From Candidatus Bathyarchaeota archaeon (GTDB lineage Archaea; Thermoproteota; Bathyarchaeia; TCS64), in NCBI GenBank assembly GCA_018396865.1, contig JAGTRB010000006.1, positions 1-64,000 on the forward strand: 64,000 nt of DNA, written 5' to 3'. Of this stretch, positions 3,266 through 28,523 are shown piece by piece (positions within the stretch are counted from its first letter, which is position 1; every line of letters begins with the position of its first letter). A program made the position numbers and the translations under genes. The notes beneath the pieces were generated by a model that did not search any database, was not told the DNA's origin, and saw nothing but the letters and a program-made list of their open reading frames with translations.

Positions 3266-3721
3266 TTACAATAATTCGTCAGGTTTTATTAGTGTATTTT
3301 TTAATCCCTTTTCTTTAATAAATTCTTTAAGTTCTTCATCTAGTGTCAACATTTTGATGCCTAGATCGACTGAGGTGGCGTAGAGTATGTTGTCTATGAT
3401 GTCTCTATGGCCTAAAAAGTACAGCCTTAGAGCTCCCCTGAAAACCTCTGCGCCCTCCACCACCCTCAGATATCTGACCCCCTCGATGATGCTCCTCAAG
3501 CCTTCACCGAACCTCTCCACATGGAGAACTCCTCTCTTCGCCAGCCTTATAGCAACCCAGAGCGACTCTAGGATGTTAAAAATCGAATAGTATACCTCGG
3601 CCTTAAGCCCATCCAGCCTCTCGAGGCCTCTCAAGAACTCGACCCCTATATCGATTCCCAGAGTTGGGAGTATGAAGGATGTGTCAAGGAGAACCCTCAG
3701 CGTATCTTCTCTGCTCTTCAA
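3266..3721 (-). CDS. vapC: PIN-domain toxin, VapC-like ribonuclease
   Basis: This 151-residue protein has the PIN-domain layout. An N-terminal VLLDTSFILP carries the first acidic metal ligand, a helical middle follows, then HRDIIDNILYATS and LTLDEEL carry the later acidic residues. PIN toxins cleave RNA with a Mg/Mn-dependent acidic triad. The start overlaps the 3' end of the AbrB gene (3684-3938) by 38 bases, which is the usual antitoxin-then-toxin arrangement and implies translational coupling. It is therefore the toxin half of a VapBC module. The RNA target cannot be inferred. Confidence 0.85.
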   Translation of the reverse strand: MKSREDTLRVLLDTSFILPTLGIDIGVEFLRGLERLDGLKAEVYYSIFNILESLWVAIRLAKRGVLHVERFGEGLRSIIEGVRYLRVVEGAEVFRGALRLYFLGHRDIIDNILYATSVDLGIKMLTLDEELKEFIKEKGLKNTLIKPDELL

Positions 3722-6072: not shown

Positions 6073-7566
6073 TTGAGATACCCTGTCCACCTCTGCCTCC
6101 TCATCTTAATAATCCTATTCACACCCATCAGGGTTCCCTATACTGGAAGGGAAGACCCAGTTGCTGAGGCTGCGGAGGGAGAGTACCTAATAGGTTTAAA
6201 AGGAGCTGATGAGACCGTTATCAACCTCTTGGAGAGGAGCGGCCTCAGAGTCGTCAGAAGAATAGAGGAGATAGGAGTCTTCTTGGTCAGAGTTGAAGCT
6301 GAGGTGGAGATATCAGAGGTTGTCAAGGCCCTTGAGCAGCACCCATCCATAGAATATCTAGAACCCAATTATCTAGTCAAACTCCCAGAAGGGGGCCTAG
6401 GCCCCAGTCTAAAAACCAGCGAGTACACAATCATAACTCCAGAAGGGGCAGTCCAACAGCCCAACGACCCCCTCTACACCTCAGACCCATACACTGGAAG
6501 GGGCCAGTGGAACATGAGGTTGATTGGGATGCCCGAGGCCTGGAACCTGGAGATGGGAACTCGAACCGTCAAGGTGGCGGTTGTGGACACAGGGGTCTTC
6601 TACAGGCACAGGGACCTTCAAGCCAGCTACATGGACGGGGGATACGACTGGGTTAATGGGGACCCGGACCCGGATGACGACTACGGCCACGGCTCCTGGG
6701 TCGCGGGGATAATAGCCGCAGAGACCGGGAACGGGTATGGGGTTGCAGGGATGGCGAGGGTATCCATAATCGCCGAGAAGGTCTTAAACTATAGGGGCTC
6801 AGGGACCATTGCAGACCTGGCCTCGGGGATTACCCACGCAGCCGACCTGGATGTGGAGATCATAAACCTCAGCCTTGGAACGGACTCCTACAGTTCAACC
6901 CTGAAGAGGGCGGTGGAGTATGCAGTTGGGAAGGGCTGCCTGCTTGTGGCTGCCGCTGGTAATAGGGGTACATCCCAGCCCCACTACCCAGCAGCCTTCG
7001 CTGAGGTGATTGCGGTGGCCTCCACATATGGCGAGCCTGAGGATGTGAGGGCCCCATACAGCAATTATGGAGGCTGGATAACCCTATCAGCCCCTGGAGG
7101 CTGGGACCAGGATGGGGACGGTATACCAGAGGCCGGAGAGTAGTGGATAATCTCAACCGATAACAGGTACGACTCCTTCAGGCTTGGAACAGGAACCTCT
7201 GCCTCCACACCCCATGTATCAGGCCTCGCAGCCCTCATCAAGAGCCATCACCCCGAAGCCACGAGCCTAGACATAAGAAGGGTCCTAGAATCCACCGCCC
7301 AGGACAAGGGGGCGCCTGGGAGAGACGACTACTACGGATATGGGAGGATAGACGCCTACAGGGCATTAAAGCAGCCCTTACTAACCTCAGTCGGCGGAGA
7401 AGGAACCATCATAGAAGGCCAGACAGTGGATCCGGTGAGCCCCGGGATGCCCACCCTAACAGCTGCCATAACCATCAAAACAATCCTTGTTGGAATCCTA
7501 TTATTAAGGAGGAGATTTAAAAATGGGGTGGAGTATGGTTGGAGATGGGCTCGGGATGGCTTCTAG
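6073..7566 (+). pseudogene. Secreted subtilisin-like serine protease interrupted by in-frame TAG
   Basis: TTG start at 6073. Residues 1-25 form a signal peptide and about 36-105 an I9-type propeptide. The S8 catalytic domain follows, with Asp172 (VAVVDTGV), His206 (YGHGSWVAGI) and the oxyanion Asn297 (VAAAGN). Codon 357 at 7141-7143 is TAG. Translation of the same frame continues without any other stop to 7566 and includes the catalytic Ser (GTSASTPHVSG, Ser codon 7198-7200), a VGGEGTIIEG motif, a hydrophobic segment and an RRR tail. The part before TAG therefore lacks the nucleophile. Explanations are a recent nonsense mutation, a sequencing error, or readthrough. TAG ends many other genes here, so it is not generally a sense codon. 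Confidence 0.85.
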
Positions 7567-22363: not shown

Positions 22364-23287
22364 TTGGATGATTCGATAATTAGGGATGGGTGGGGGCGCC
22401 CCGTCAACAACCTGCGGATATCCCTAACCCAGAGGTGCAACTTCAGCTGCTTCTTCTGCCACAGGGAGGGGGAGGATGATGCGGATGGTGAGGCAACCTT
22501 AGAGGAGGTGGAGAGGATCGCAGCCATAGCATCCAAACTTGGGATAAGGAGGTTCAAGTTGACAGGTGGGGAGCCCCTGATGAGGGGGGACATCCTCGAG
22601 CTTGTAGAGAGAGTATCCAGAATCGGTGAGGAGGTCTCGATGACCACAAACGGCTCCCTCCTGGCGGATAAGGCCTCGGAGTTGAAGGAAAGGGGGCTAA
22701 GGAGGGTGAACATAAGCCTCCACTCCCTCAGGAGGAGGACCTTCCAATGGATAACTGGACGCGATGCCCTGAGGGAGGTGGAGGAGGGGGTTGAGGCGTC
22801 AGTTGAGGCTGGCCTCAACCCGGTCAAGCTGAACATGGTCGTCATGGAAGGAGTTAATACTGAGGAGATACCGGAGATGATATATTACTCCAAGAGTAAG
22901 GGCGCCATACTCCAACTCATAGAGTTCCAGCCCATACAGGATGGGGCTGCCCACTGGAATAGGTTCTACTACGACCTAAAAACCGTGGAGGAGATTCTAG
23001 ATAAAATGTCAGAGAGAATTGTTGAACGTCAGCTACACAGGAGGAGGCAGTATCACCTAAGAGGCGGGGGGGTGGTGGAGGTGGTGAGGCCCATGCATAA
23101 CACCGAGTTCTGCAGATACTGTACGAGGATGAGGGTGACCTCGGACGGGAGGCTGAAGCCATGCCTCATGAGGAACGACAACCTCGTGGAACTCGCCTCC
23201 CTGATGAGAACTGGAGCCTCTGATGAGATGCTCATAAAGGCCTTCAAAGAGGCGGTGGCCAGGAGAGAGCCCTACTGGAGGGATTAG
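22364..23287 (+). CDS. moaA: GTP 3',8-cyclase MoaA
   Basis: TTG start 8 bases after an AGGTGAG site. Radical SAM enzyme with Cys25/29/32 (CNFSCFFC) for the SAM-binding cluster. The second cluster has the MoaA-specific C-terminal cysteines (FCRYCTRMRV and LKPCL). GGEPL and the MTTNGS segment are present. It makes 3',8-cyclo-GTP, the first step of molybdopterin synthesis. The protein ends YWRD rather than the bacterial GG. First gene of a six-gene cofactor operon. Confidence 0.93.
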   Translation: MDDSIIRDGWGRPVNNLRISLTQRCNFSCFFCHREGEDDADGEATLEEVERIAAIASKLGIRRFKLTGGEPLMRGDILELVERVSRIGEEVSMTTNGSLLADKASELKERGLRRVNISLHSLRRRTFQWITGRDALREVEEGVEASVEAGLNPVKLNMVVMEGVNTEEIPEMIYYSKSKGAILQLIEFQPIQDGAAHWNRFYYDLKTVEEILDKMSERIVERQLHRRRQYHLRGGGVVEVVRPMHNTEFCRYCTRMRVTSDGRLKPCLMRNDNLVELASLMRTGASDEMLIKAFKEAVARREPYWRD

Positions 23288-23288
23288 G

Positions 23289-23531
23289 TTGAAGATAAGG
23301 ATCAAATACTACGCCTCACTGAGGGAACTCGTCGGCACCCCATCGGAGGAGCTCAACCTAGAGGATGGGTCAAAGATAGAAGACCTGATGAGGAAGATCA
23401 TGGAGATCCACAAGCCACTGAAAGAGGTGAAGAGGATCCTCATAGCGGTGAACGAGGATTATGTGGAGATGAATGAAAACCTGAGGGACGGCGACCTAGT
23501 CGCCCTCTTCCCGCCTGTGAGCGGTGGTTGA
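23289..23531 (+). CDS. moaD: Molybdopterin synthase small subunit MoaD
   Basis: An 80-residue beta-grasp, ubiquitin-like protein (KIRIKYYASLRELVG at the start, LFPPVSGG at the end). The terminal Gly-Gly becomes a thiocarboxylate that donates sulfur to precursor Z. TTG start one base after the moaA stop, with moaE overlapping its 3' end by 8 bases, so translation is coupled. No MoeB/ThiF-type activating enzyme is encoded in the window. Confidence 0.93.
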   Translation: MKIRIKYYASLRELVGTPSEELNLEDGSKIEDLMRKIMEIHKPLKEVKRILIAVNEDYVEMNENLRDGDLVALFPPVSGG

Positions 23532-23952
23532 GATGATAGAGATCAAGAGGGAGGACTTCTCTATAGATGAGGCTTTAGGTAGGCTGCTTAAACCTGGTAT
23601 TGGGGCTGTGGTCATCTTCCTAGGGGTTGTCAGGGGCGAGTCTAGGGGGAGGGGCGTTGATGGGGTGGATATAGAGGTTTATAATGAGATGGCGGTGAGG
23701 CAGCTTGAGGCCATTAGGAGGGAGGCCCTGGAGAGGTTTGGGGTGGATGAGGTTCTCATAATCCACAGGTTTGGAAGCCTCAAGGCGATGGAGAGGATCA
23801 TGATGATAGCCGTCGGGGCGGCCCACAGGGCTGAGGCCTTCGAGGCCTGCAGGTACATCATAGAGAGTATCAAGAGGAGGGTTCCCATATGGAAGAAGGA
23901 GGTCACATCGGAGGGGGATTTCTGGGTAGAGGAGACCTGGGAGGCGGGATAA
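23524..23952 (+). CDS. moaE: Molybdopterin synthase large subunit MoaE
   Basis: 142 residues with the MoaE pattern: GAVVIFLGVVRG near residue 27-38, LEAIRREALERF, IIHRFGSL, and the active-site VPIWKKEV near the C-terminus that receives the MoaD tail. It converts cyclic pyranopterin monophosphate to molybdopterin together with MoaD. Overlaps moaD by 8 bases; the next gene follows after 5 bases. Confidence 0.93.
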   Translation: MVEMIEIKREDFSIDEALGRLLKPGIGAVVIFLGVVRGESRGRGVDGVDIEVYNEMAVRQLEAIRREALERFGVDEVLIIHRFGSLKAMERIMMIAVGAAHRAEAFEACRYIIESIKRRVPIWKKEVTSEGDFWVEETWEAG

Positions 23953-23957
23953 ATCCG

Positions 23958-24389
23958 ATGAGGATGGTCGACATCTCCGCTAAGGAGGAGATCCGGCGGG
24001 TGGCGGAGGCTGTTGGGAGGATAGAGCTGAAGGGAGAGACCATCGAGGCTATAAGGAGGGGAAGGGTGGAGAAGGGGGATCCCCTCGCCGCTGCCATGGT
24101 GGCGGGGATAATGGCTGCAAAGAGGACCCCTGAACTAATACCCCTATGCCACCCGATACCGTTATCCTCCGTCGAACTAGACTTCAAAGTGGGGGAGGGG
24201 TTCATAGAGGCCAGGTGCACCGTGAAGGCCGAGTACAAGACCGGGGTTGAGATGGAGGCCCTAACGGGGGCCACCGCAGCCCTACTAACCATCTGGGACA
24301 TGGTCAAGTACCTGGAGAAGGATGAGGAAGGCCAGTATCCATCGACGAGGATCAAGGAGATCAGGGTGGTGGAGAAGAGGAAGGGTTGA
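23958..24389 (+). CDS. moaC: Cyclic pyranopterin monophosphate synthase MoaC
   Basis: The frame is open further upstream, but the ATG at 23958 just after the moaE stop gives the canonical MVDISAKEE start. Conserved LIPLCHPIPL, KAEYKTGVEMEALTG and IWDMVKYLEK segments hold the active-site His, Lys and Asp. It converts 3',8-cyclo-GTP into cyclic pyranopterin monophosphate. Confidence 0.95.
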   Translation: MRMVDISAKEEIRRVAEAVGRIELKGETIEAIRRGRVEKGDPLAAAMVAGIMAAKRTPELIPLCHPIPLSSVELDFKVGEGFIEARCTVKAEYKTGVEMEALTGATAALLTIWDMVKYLEKDEEGQYPSTRIKEIRVVEKRKG

Positions 24390-24393
24390 GGGG

Positions 24394-24891
24394 ATGGAGG
24401 AGCATAGGAGGGATCAGAGGGTCGAGGCGACCTGCGCCGTCATAGTGACGAGCGACGCCAGGAGGCCCGAGACCGATGAGACCGGTAGGGAGGCGATCAA
24501 ACTCCTTGAGGAGGCAGGCCACAGGGTAAAGACCTATATGATATTGAGAAACGAGGTGGAAGAGATCAGGGAGGCCGTATCGAAGCTCATAGAGAGGGAT
24601 GAGATACAGGTGGTCATAACCAGCGGGGGAACAGGGATAAGTAGCAGAGACAACACGATAGAGGCGGTCCAATCGATCCTAGAGAAACGGATAGATGGAT
24701 TCGGGGAGCTGTTCAGGAGGCTTAGCTATGAGGAGATAGGGGAGGCAGCCATCCTCAGCAGGGCGACGGCGGGCATAGCCAAGAGGAAGCTCATAGTCTG
24801 CCTTCCCGGTTCCAGGAGAGCTGTGGAGCTAGGGCTGAGGAGGATAGTCATCCCAGCCTTGGGCCATATCCTATGGGAGGCGAACAGGTGA
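24394..24891 (+). CDS. moaB: Molybdopterin adenylyltransferase MoaB/MogA type
   Basis: ATG at 24394, 4 bases after the moaC stop. A Rossmann-like MPT-binding fold with VIVTSDARRPETDETG, the TSGGTGISSRDNT signature (residues about 86-98) and the final LPGSRRAVELGL. Archaeal MoaB adenylates molybdopterin before metal insertion, the role of MogA in bacteria. The next gene starts 5 bases downstream. Confidence 0.92.
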   Translation: MEEHRRDQRVEATCAVIVTSDARRPETDETGREAIKLLEEAGHRVKTYMILRNEVEEIREAVSKLIERDEIQVVITSGGTGISSRDNTIEAVQSILEKRIDGFGELFRRLSYEEIGEAAILSRATAGIAKRKLIVCLPGSRRAVELGLRRIVIPALGHILWEANR

Positions 24892-24896
24892 GAGTG

Positions 24897-26105
24897 ATGA
24901 GGCCCTTCAAACGCCTAATTTCGAGGGAGGAGGCCCTAGCCATAATATCGGCCAATGTCAGACGCGTCGATAGGGTTGAGAGGATCCCCATAGAGGCCTC
25001 GGAGGGGAGGGTTCTAGCGGAGGACATTATAGCCGACTTCAATGTGCCACCCTTCAGCAGGGCCGCGATGGATGGATACGCCGTCAGGGCGGAGGACACA
25101 TACGGAGCCTCCACATACACCCCGAAGAGGCTGAGGCTGATTGGAAGGCAGAATGCCGGGGAGTGGTTTGAGGGTGAGGTGGGCAAGGGAGAGTGTCTAG
25201 AGGTGGCAACTGGAAGCCCCGTACCGAGAGGCAGCGACGCCGTGGTTCCGATGGAATACATAGTGCTGGAAGGTGGCGTAGTGGAGGTGAGGAGGCCAGT
25301 CCATCCCGGGGCCAACATCTCACCCGAGGGAGAAGACATAAAGAGGGGTGAGACGGTCATGAGGCTAGGGGAGGTCCTAACCCCTGGAAAGGTGGGAGCC
25401 CTTGCAGCCCTGGGAAGAGGCTCAGTGCTGGTCTACTCAAAGCCCTCCGTCGCGGTCATCCCGACGGGCTCGGAGGTGAGACCACTCGGCAGCCCGCTGG
25501 AGAGGGGACAGGTCTATGACACCAACTCCTACACCCTCTCAGCCCTCATATCAGCCCACGGATGCATCCCCAAAAGATTCCAAGTGATCCCAGACGAGCC
25601 TGAAGCCATAAGAGCAGCTCTCAGGATGGGGCTGAGTCAAGACCTGATCGTCTTCACGGGCGGGAGTTCCGTAGGAGCCCGAGATCTCCTGGTGGACGCC
25701 GTGGAGGAGGTGGGGAGAGTTCTATTCCACGGAGTCCAGGTGAAGCCGGGAAAGCCAACCCTCTTCGGAATTGTAGAGGATAAGCCAGTCTTCGGGATGC
25801 CGGGATACCCAACCTCATGCCTAAGCAACGCCTACATATTCCTCATCCCAGCCCTCAGAACCCTCGCAGGGCTACCACCATATAAGCCGAGAATGGTGGA
25901 GGGGAGGATGGCTGAGAGGGTTGTCGCATCCACTGGCAGGGAGCAGTTCCTAACAGTTAGGGTCAGGGATGGGCTGGTATACCCAGCCTTCAAGGAGTCT
26001 GGAGCCATCACGAGCATGGCTCACGCCGACGGATACATAATAATCCCGATAAACGCCGATGTCATAGAGGAGGGCGAGGAGGTAATGGTCACCCTACTAG
26101 AATAG
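24897..26105 (+). CDS. moeA: Molybdopterin molybdenumtransferase MoeA
   Basis: The open frame begins at 24873, but ATG 24897 has AGGTGAG immediately upstream and follows the moaB stop. MoeA domains appear in order: FSRAAMDGYAVRAED, the ATGSPVPRGSDAVVPME segment, HPGANISPEGED, then the MoaB-like domain (IPTGSEV, YDTNSYTL, FTGGSSVGARD, KPGKPTLFG, GMPGYPTS) and the C-terminal barrel. It inserts molybdate or tungstate into adenylated molybdopterin. It ends the operon; the metalloenzymes using the cofactor are not in the window. Confidence 0.93.
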   Translation: MRPFKRLISREEALAIISANVRRVDRVERIPIEASEGRVLAEDIIADFNVPPFSRAAMDGYAVRAEDTYGASTYTPKRLRLIGRQNAGEWFEGEVGKGECLEVATGSPVPRGSDAVVPMEYIVLEGGVVEVRRPVHPGANISPEGEDIKRGETVMRLGEVLTPGKVGALAALGRGSVLVYSKPSVAVIPTGSEVRPLGSPLERGQVYDTNSYTLSALISAHGCIPKRFQVIPDEPEAIRAALRMGLSQDLIVFTGGSSVGARDLLVDAVEEVGRVLFHGVQVKPGKPTLFGIVEDKPVFGMPGYPTSCLSNAYIFLIPALRTLAGLPPYKPRMVEGRMAERVVASTGREQFLTVRVRDGLVYPAFKESGAITSMAHADGYIIIPINADVIEEGEEVMVTLLE

Positions 26106-26697: not shown

Positions 26698-26845
26698 CGG
26701 GAACGGCCGTAGCCTCATGCAAGGCATTGACGTTATAGGTAGTTAGAGAACTCTCAGGATGTTAGGTATCTGCGATGGTGTAGGCTTGATAGCTCATCAT
26801 CTCCATAAGATTTTTCTTGCTCCTTGGTGCCTTTCAACCGGGGCT

Positions 26846-28072
26846 TTGTCAGATAGGCAGTTGCTGGTGAGCAAGATAGAGAACGGGATAGTGATAGATC
26901 ACATTCCCGCTGGTAAGGCATTCCTCGTCCTGAAGCTCCTGAGGCTCGACCCCTCCGCAAGGGTTCTCCTCGCGATAAATGTGGATAGCAGGCGCCTAGG
27001 GGTTAAGGACATAATCAAGGTTGAGGGGACATACCTCACCTCCAGGGAGATAGAGCTGATCGCCCTCGTGGCTCCAACAGCGACCCTCAACATCATAGAG
27101 GGTTGGGAGGTGAGGGAGAAGAGGCCATTGAGGGTTCCCGAGGAGATCAAGGGGGTCTTCAAGTGCCCCAACCTCCTATGCCCCACGAACTCAAGATACT
27201 CTCCCCCCAGGCAGGTTTTCAGGGTTGAGGCTGGGGGGAGGGTGGAGGAGACGAGGCTCCACTGCCAACACTGCGGCTCCATCCTCTACTACAGCTCCAT
27301 CCTTGAACAGATCGAGGGGGGAACCATAAGCCTGGAGGGTGGTGGGCTGGTCTCGAAGGGGAAGATAGAGAAGGTCTTCCTGGATCTCCTCCTTAGGAAG
27401 GGTGCTCTCCGCCTCCCCCCCAGCGCGAGGGAGCCCTTCATATTGAAGAGTGGCCGCCCCTCACCCTACTTCATAAACTTGGGGGTTCTCACGGATGGGG
27501 AGAGCCTAGCCATATTGAAGTGGGCTTTCGCAAGCTACATAGCCCTCTTAATGGAGCAGGGGGAGATAGAGGACTTCGAGTACATATTCGGCCCTAGCTA
27601 TAAGGGGATAAGCCTCGCAGCCCTAGCCTGTGAGGGGCTGAACGAACTCTACGGAATGGAGAAGCGTTACATGTATGACAGGAAGGAGGAGAAGGCCTAT
27701 GGAGACACCTCCGCGGATAGGGTGATCGTGGGTGCGGGATTCTTCAAGCCGGGCCAGAGAATACTCGTCGTCGACGACACCATAACCACAGGAGCGACGA
27801 AGATGGACACATTCGAGAAGCTGAAACTCCTCGGGCCCCACAAGGTTGTAGGCCTAGTCATAGCGGTCGACAGGCAGGAGAGGATGGGGGACGCAGAGAA
27901 GGTGGAGGAGAAGGGAGCGGCGGAATACATAGAGGAGGAGATAGGAGTTAAGGTCTACTCGATCCAAAATGTGAAGGGGATATACCGAATCATAAGGGAT
28001 AGCCTCGACGAAGACATGAGGCGCCTCTGGGTCGAATACTACGCTAAATATGGAACAATATCCTTGGAGTAG
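26846..28072 (+). CDS. Fused aspartate carbamoyltransferase regulatory chain (PyrI) and orotate phosphoribosyltransferase (PyrE)
   Basis: The frame opens at ATG 26759, but homology to PyrI starts at about the TTG at 26846 (SDRQLLVSKIENG), used here. The first 150 residues are a complete PyrI: the allosteric domain (IDHIPAGKAFLVLKLL, LAINVDSRRLGVKDIIKVEG) and the zinc domain with four Cys (CPNLLC and CQHC). From about residue 170 a full OPRT follows: FILKSGRPSPYFIN, a GPSYKGISLA segment and the PRPP loop VVDDTITTGATK. PyrI regulates PyrB allosterically; PyrE makes OMP from orotate and PRPP. The two domains are joined in frame with no stop. No pyrB is in the window. Confidence 0.88.
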   Translation: MSDRQLLVSKIENGIVIDHIPAGKAFLVLKLLRLDPSARVLLAINVDSRRLGVKDIIKVEGTYLTSREIELIALVAPTATLNIIEGWEVREKRPLRVPEEIKGVFKCPNLLCPTNSRYSPPRQVFRVEAGGRVEETRLHCQHCGSILYYSSILEQIEGGTISLEGGGLVSKGKIEKVFLDLLLRKGALRLPPSAREPFILKSGRPSPYFINLGVLTDGESLAILKWAFASYIALLMEQGEIEDFEYIFGPSYKGISLAALACEGLNELYGMEKRYMYDRKEEKAYGDTSADRVIVGAGFFKPGQRILVVDDTITTGATKMDTFEKLKLLGPHKVVGLVIAVDRQERMGDAEKVEEKGAAEYIEEEIGVKVYSIQNVKGIYRIIRDSLDEDMRRLWVEYYAKYGTISLE

Positions 28073-28163: not shown

Positions 28164-28523
28164 TCACTTCTTGGTCGTTATTGTGTACTTGCATCCCAGA
28201 GGTGCTAGAGCCTCATCTATCTTCTGTATGAGCCTATTAAGCTCATCCATTGTGGGCTCCTTAAACCACTCGAAGAAGAAGTCGTACTCCCCTAGAAGCT
28301 CTCCCGACTTGCTTATCAGCTTGCCGCAACGCTCAACAGGAACCTCTATTCCCAGCGTGGTGCCGAAGTAGGCCGCGACACCCGTCTCGCTGCTGAACAT
28401 TGGGAGTTCCTGGGCGATGATGGTGTCCATTATGCAGACCTCAGGCATCTCCAAGGCTATCTTCTCAAGCGCCCTAATGGCCTCCAGGGTGGGGGGACCA
28501 TAAATCTTTATGTAGCTCCTCAT
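28164..28523 (-). CDS. Conserved-looking hypothetical protein
   Basis: 119 residues, mixed alpha/beta, no signal peptide or membrane segment. Recognisable features are an N-terminal SYIKIYGPPTLEAIRALEKIA strand-helix, Cys30 in VCIMDT, VERCGKLISKSGEL and the FFFEWFKEPTMDEL segment. Codon usage and length look real, but I do not recognise the family. Transcribed divergently from pgk. Confidence 0.6.
   Translation of the reverse strand: MRSYIKIYGPPTLEAIRALEKIALEMPEVCIMDTIIAQELPMFSSETGVAAYFGTTLGIEVPVERCGKLISKSGELLGEYDFFFEWFKEPTMDELNRLIQKIDEALAPLGCKYTITTKK

Follow-up and report, generated by a model that had tools for sequence, protein, structure and literature searches.

A PyrI-orotate phosphoribosyltransferase fusion in Bathyarchaeia as a candidate case of relocated pyrimidine feedback control

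Aspartate carbamoyltransferase (ATCase), composed of PyrB and PyrI, is the textbook allosteric enzyme, and PyrI, its regulatory chain, normally keeps the first committed step of pyrimidine synthesis under control. The window, a stretch of 64,000 nucleotides of a Candidatus Bathyarchaeota archaeon (GCA_018396865.1, contig JAGTRB010000006.1, positions 1 to 64,000), contains a gene in which PyrI is joined instead to orotate phosphoribosyltransferase (OPRT, PyrE), a later enzyme of the same pathway. In the literature searched, which lies outside most subscription journals, we found no published description of a PyrI-PyrE fusion. What, then, does an ATCase regulatory chain do on OPRT?

Inspection of the reading frame shows that positions 26759-28072 are open and free of stops. 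Pfam and NCBIfam domains, together with AlphaFold and Foldseek, confirm what the first-pass annotation had read from the letters, namely a single frame with a complete PyrI followed by a complete OPRT. The start that it had proposed, the ATG at 26759, has to be moved, since nothing upstream of 26846 is conserved. Most likely the protein begins at the TTG at 26846, 29 codons further downstream. Nearly all relatives have TTG, GTG or ATG at the equivalent position (ATG in G008, TTG in G017), and their homology and open frame often end just upstream of it, often with an in-frame stop. The residue-coding part, 26846-28069, specifies 408 residues, in which the PyrI allosteric domain and the four-Cys zinc domain are followed by a short linker and then by a complete OPRT (Table 1). 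On the long frame Pfam finds PyrI (E 6e-29), PyrI_C (E 4e-6, above cut-off) and then a phosphoribosyltransferase, and NCBIfam finds ATCase_reg (E 6e-39, residues 33-176) and pyrE (E 4e-30, residues 225-406). The PyrI part scores 133.2 bits against the full-length equivalog TIGR00240, under its cut-off of 148.55. The OPRT part lies right at the TIGR00336 cut-off of 106.8, with 107.5 bits in the genome-wide search and 104.9 in the protein scan. An AlphaFold2 model built with 24 fusion sequences has a mean pLDDT of 84.4; the linker scores lower, with a mean of 62 over the block of residues 161-170. Foldseek matches this model to PyrI of S. acidocaldarius (1pg5_B), M. jannaschii and E. coli and to OPRT of yeast and E. 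coli (E 3e-19); the closest solved relatives of the OPRT part are the Francisella, yeast and Salmonella enzymes.

Table 1. Features of the fusion gene in the window, and the deletion site in a related genome (last line, coordinates of its own locus)
Feature	Position	Strand	Details
pyrI-pyrE fusion gene	26846..28072	+	408 aa, most likely TTG start; start position and frame conserved in relatives; Pfam/NCBIfam domains
PyrI allosteric (nucleotide-binding) domain, residues 2-100	26849..27145	+	PF01948, E 6e-29; median dN/dS 0.07
Asp18-His19 (E. coli PyrI D19-H20, nucleotide site)	26897..26902	+	invariant in 29/29 fused proteins
PyrI zinc domain, residues 101-158	27146..27319	+	PF02748; Cys107, Cys112, Cys140 and Cys143 invariant in 29/29 fused proteins
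Inter-domain linker, residues 159-172	27320..27361	+	family consensus LEGGGLVSKEK; no length change in the order
Bacterial/eukaryal-type OPRT, residues 173-408	27362..28069	+	TIGR00336, E 4e-30; fold match
OPRT catalytic flexible loop YDRKEEKAYGDTSA	27674..27715	+	Y277, D278, R279, K280, E281, K283, Y285, G286 and D287 invariant in A1
PRPP-binding loop LVVDDTITTGAT	27764..27799	+	L307, D310, D311, T314, T315, G316 and T318 invariant in A1
Deletion site in G252, L191 (G252:C45)	3270-3390	-	about 24 codons of fused PyrI left, CTAG-rich scar ctaggctagctagctagg, intact OPRT

The comparison shows a genuine and ancient fusion with a patchy distribution in Thermoproteota. The first-pass annotation had proposed a search for the same domain order in related archaea, and the architecture was indeed found throughout the host GTDB order, with diverged copies beyond. 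Full-length copies are present in 22 of the order's genomes (families f1, f2 and f3), nearly always with exactly 408 aa, and the PyrI-OPRT junction carries no indel there. One could argue that assembly has joined two separate neighbouring genes, and broken copies do occur: G008 has a 1-nt frameshift and G017 an N gap, and others are cut off by contig ends. However, more than 20 other genomes share the same in-frame junction, among them the closed or single-contig assemblies CP070784 and G292, and the length is near-identical within the order; an artefact is refuted by this conservation and has a negligible probability. The frameshift in G008 concerns one base where PyrI meets OPRT, within a G-rich stretch (L048, about 6500-6600), and is a sequencing error or a true split. 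Relatives with two separate genes, named beforehand as evidence against a fusion, are absent within the order and exist only outside it.

The wider distribution was followed in a class survey of 257 genomes and a 398-genome draw from the phylum, and beyond Thermoproteota in a pattern-limited scan; MAG incompleteness and clade-structured sampling limit all these comparisons. In the class outside the host order the fusion is present in G049 only; G252, of the same genus, has a deleted form. The remaining class members mostly have a standalone PyrI, whose gene is a divergent neighbour of pyrB in the genomes inspected. The phylum draw yielded five further full-length fusions (families f39 and f50), which share 47-48% identity with the window's protein; one lies on a single contig of 1,680,938 bp (G292). 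G257 also carries the fusion, and the PyrI family model gave only one weak match over cut-off among its 19 order-mates. No fusion match was obtained in G004, G010, G014 and G019, which are 64-85% complete.

Purifying selection acts on PyrI, linker and OPRT alike, with a median pairwise dN/dS of 0.12 in the zinc domain, 0.06 in OPRT and about 0 in the linker. The latter value argues that the linker is not a neutral spacer, although its 14 codons are a small sample. In the nucleotide site the equivalents of E. coli V9, I12, V17, D19, H20, K60, N84, I86 and K94 are kept in 28-29 of the 29 fused proteins, and that of V91 is V or I in all of them. One change is consistent, Y89 to Trp (27/29). On the PyrB-facing side Asn111 is kept throughout (29/29), and Glu119, present in 20/20 standalone PyrIs, is found in none of the 29 fused proteins.

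The former partner has changed as well. In E. coli PyrB the residues R113, E117 and D236 lie in PyrI-contact or T-state interfaces. So do E109, K164 and E239, for which the contacts E109-N111r and K164-E239 are described (PMC6056424). Every catalytic residue of PyrB is kept throughout the order. The combination E/D109, R/K113, E/D117 and D236 is complete in each of the 29 PyrBs whose genome has a standalone PyrI, including G027 and G049, and in only 5 of the 26 from genomes lacking one. G004 is counted among these 26 because no PyrI exceeds the cut-off there. The five exceptions are G000-G002 (the genus of the window), G006 and G017; PyrB of the window's genus retains D109, G110, R113, E/D117, D236 and E239. 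In f1 and f3 the fused PyrI is the only PyrI. Here E109 underwent 5 steps (0 in the sister families), R113 8 (2), E117 10 (1) and D236 8 (0), despite a smaller total tree length (7.0 vs 8.6), whereas in the sister families the contact and T-state sites are nearly unchanged. Nine contact/T-state residues, taken from a list made from E. coli knowledge before the comparison, accumulated 56 steps against 24.7 expected in conservation-matched columns (0/20,000 draws), or 50 against 22.6 with the window's own genus left out (P 5e-5). A stricter set, the literature-cited PyrB residues 109, 164 and 239, points in the right direction with a marginal excess (P 0.07). Seven trimer-contact residues are not enriched (9 steps vs 17.3 expected) and the 13 active-site residues show no step at all. 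PyrB change is concentrated at the PyrI-contact and T-state sites, not at the trimer contacts. The PyrBs of G257 and G292 are also devoid of the contact motif, and their ancestors may never have had it; in G292 profile search gave no standalone PyrI, and direct reading covered about 1.2 Mb of the 1.68 Mb.

We consider it somewhat probable that OPRT captured the PyrI domain as its nucleotide-sensing regulatory module and that fused PyrI would generally no longer act as an ATCase subunit. The accompanying idea that feedback has been re-wired, making OPRT an allosteric enzyme under CTP/ATP control and freeing ATCase, with loss of its allosteric interfaces, we regard as evenly balanced. In the simplest course of events PyrI would have become a sensor on OPRT, the native PyrI would then have been lost in f1/f3, and ATCase would afterwards have lost the constraint on its allosteric interfaces. 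Of these steps, the comparison shows the fusion and its conservation, the loss of native PyrI and the decay of the PyrB surface. PyrB in these genomes would be an unregulated trimer, like ATCases without PyrI. Binding of CTP, UTP or ATP to the allosteric domain might act through the zinc domain and linker to alter the activity or assembly of OPRT, and feedback on UMP synthesis would then fall on step 5 and no longer on step 2. Since the known homologues of PyrI and of OPRT are dimeric, the fusion could be a dimer or a higher oligomer. The earlier proposal that nucleotide sensing may have shifted onto OPRT is supported by sequence comparison, with a kept sensor site, altered docking surfaces on both partners and a strongly selected linker. 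Capture is further favoured by gene position, since the fusion sits by pyrD/pyrF (G427) or before pyrF (G292) and not beside pyrB, and by G252, which has standalone pyrB and pyrI and has deleted the PyrI half while keeping OPRT. Against it counts that the PyrB contact motif persists in G000-G002, G006 and G017, which have no standalone PyrI, that the invariant Asn111 is the partner of PyrB Glu109 in E. coli (PMC6056424), that the constraint on the zinc domain needs another role if PyrB does not dock, and that most genomes without standalone PyrI represent one clade.

Some of these observations can be read in favour of a fused PyrI that is still the ATCase regulatory chain and carries OPRT on a PyrB6-(PyrI-PyrE)6 particle, tethering steps 2 and 5, as the first-pass annotation had also suggested. 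The retained PyrB residues of the window's own genus, Asn111 and the intact zinc site would fit such a particle, and an ATCase-OPRT complex with a dual role is possible in that genus. For most of the clade tethering is disfavoured, because in most of f1/f3, where no standalone PyrI exists, the PyrI-contact and T-state residues of PyrB are gone. The loss of Glu119 from the fused zinc domains, the conventional appearance of PyrB where a standalone PyrI coexists with the fusion (G027, G049) and the lack of linkage between fusion gene and pyrB in the window's genome also speak against it, and overall we find it improbable. We are equally doubtful about PyrI as a purely structural, stabilising dimerisation module whose nucleotide site is kept for stability and not for regulation. 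The dimeric nature of both partners and the constrained linker and zinc domain agree with such a role; however, the residues contacting CTP/ATP are retained almost completely across lineages that are about 45-50% identical.

The window's genome (G000) allows a closer look at the pathway. It encodes a single true ATCase catalytic gene, located on another contig (C11), besides two weaker paralogues. This answers the earlier question whether pyrB occurs elsewhere in the genome; its PyrI-contact motif is kept. The fused PyrI is the sole PyrI of this genome, and the fused OPRT the only one near the family cut-off. Contig C34 has a C-terminal OPRT fragment (L002, 1498-1872, minus strand), about 81% identical to the window's and near a rubrerythrin-like gene; it is either a truncated duplicate or a contaminant contig. 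With the queries used, the window shows no pyrC, pyrD or pyrF homologue, and across the order none lies less than about 6 kb from the fusion. In G427 the fusion lies between pyrD and pyrF, and in G292 pyrF follows it directly, both as identified by eye from translations.

Trees set both halves apart from the native genes. A clade on the bacterial/eukaryal side (support 99/99) unites the fused OPRTs with a few standalone relatives (G252, G083, G258), and the split from the PyrE of the class is supported by 100/100, which rules out inheritance from the latter. The fused PyrIs form their own group outside the Bathyarchaeal standalone PyrIs, and a copy of the native PyrI was rejected on this basis, with the caution that the branches are long. 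G027 and G049 carry both forms. The patchy presence suggests that the fusion spread horizontally. Just upstream of the fusion in G049 lies a decayed PyrE-like fragment with a stop (L181, G049:C38, 1320-1680, minus strand), possibly the native pyrE that the fusion displaced. G252 has lost most of the fused PyrI through an internal deletion; OPRT is intact, and the standalone pyrB/pyrI pair is located elsewhere in the genome.

Compared with PyrI of S. acidocaldarius and E. coli, the fused protein shares the allosteric domain, the nucleotide-site residues, the four-Cys zinc domain and the fold, but it is joined to OPRT, has lost Glu119 and is not encoded beside pyrB. Likewise, the active-site loop, PRPP loop and fold are those of yeast URA5, E. 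coli and Salmonella PyrE and the Francisella enzyme (3mjd), none of which carries the N-terminal PyrI, and the OPRT is of a different type from the archaeal PyrE of other Bathyarchaeia. PyrI is also joined to a pyrimidine enzyme in the PyrB-PyrI fusion (NF009916) of the Thermotoga type, yet there the partner is its own catalytic chain and here another enzyme that acts later. OPRT is combined with the enzyme of the next step in UMP synthase and other OPRT-OMP decarboxylase fusions (NF004034), in contrast to the non-catalytic sensor found here. An ATCase regulatory subunit on another enzyme of the same pathway, whose former partner decays at the matching interface, suggests that the control point of pyrimidine feedback may have moved. 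Since the regulatory subunit has moved and the old partner's interface has decayed, transfer of a feedback point between enzymes becomes directly testable with natural intermediates, in which the sensor is on both (G027, G049) or lost again (G252), and the docking surface is kept (own genus) or lost (the rest).

Directly upstream of the fusion the window contains a molybdopterin cluster (22364-26105; moaA, moaD, moaE, moaC, moaB and a moeA-like gene). On the minus strand at 28164-28523 a 119-aa protein with no Pfam match is encoded, which occurs near the fusion in several f1 genomes with 45-97% identity. In genomes of related phyla (L240, L241) compact pyrB-pyrI-pyrC-pyrD/K-pyrE-pyrF operons are present, and their standalone OPRT is 38-39% identical to the fused one.
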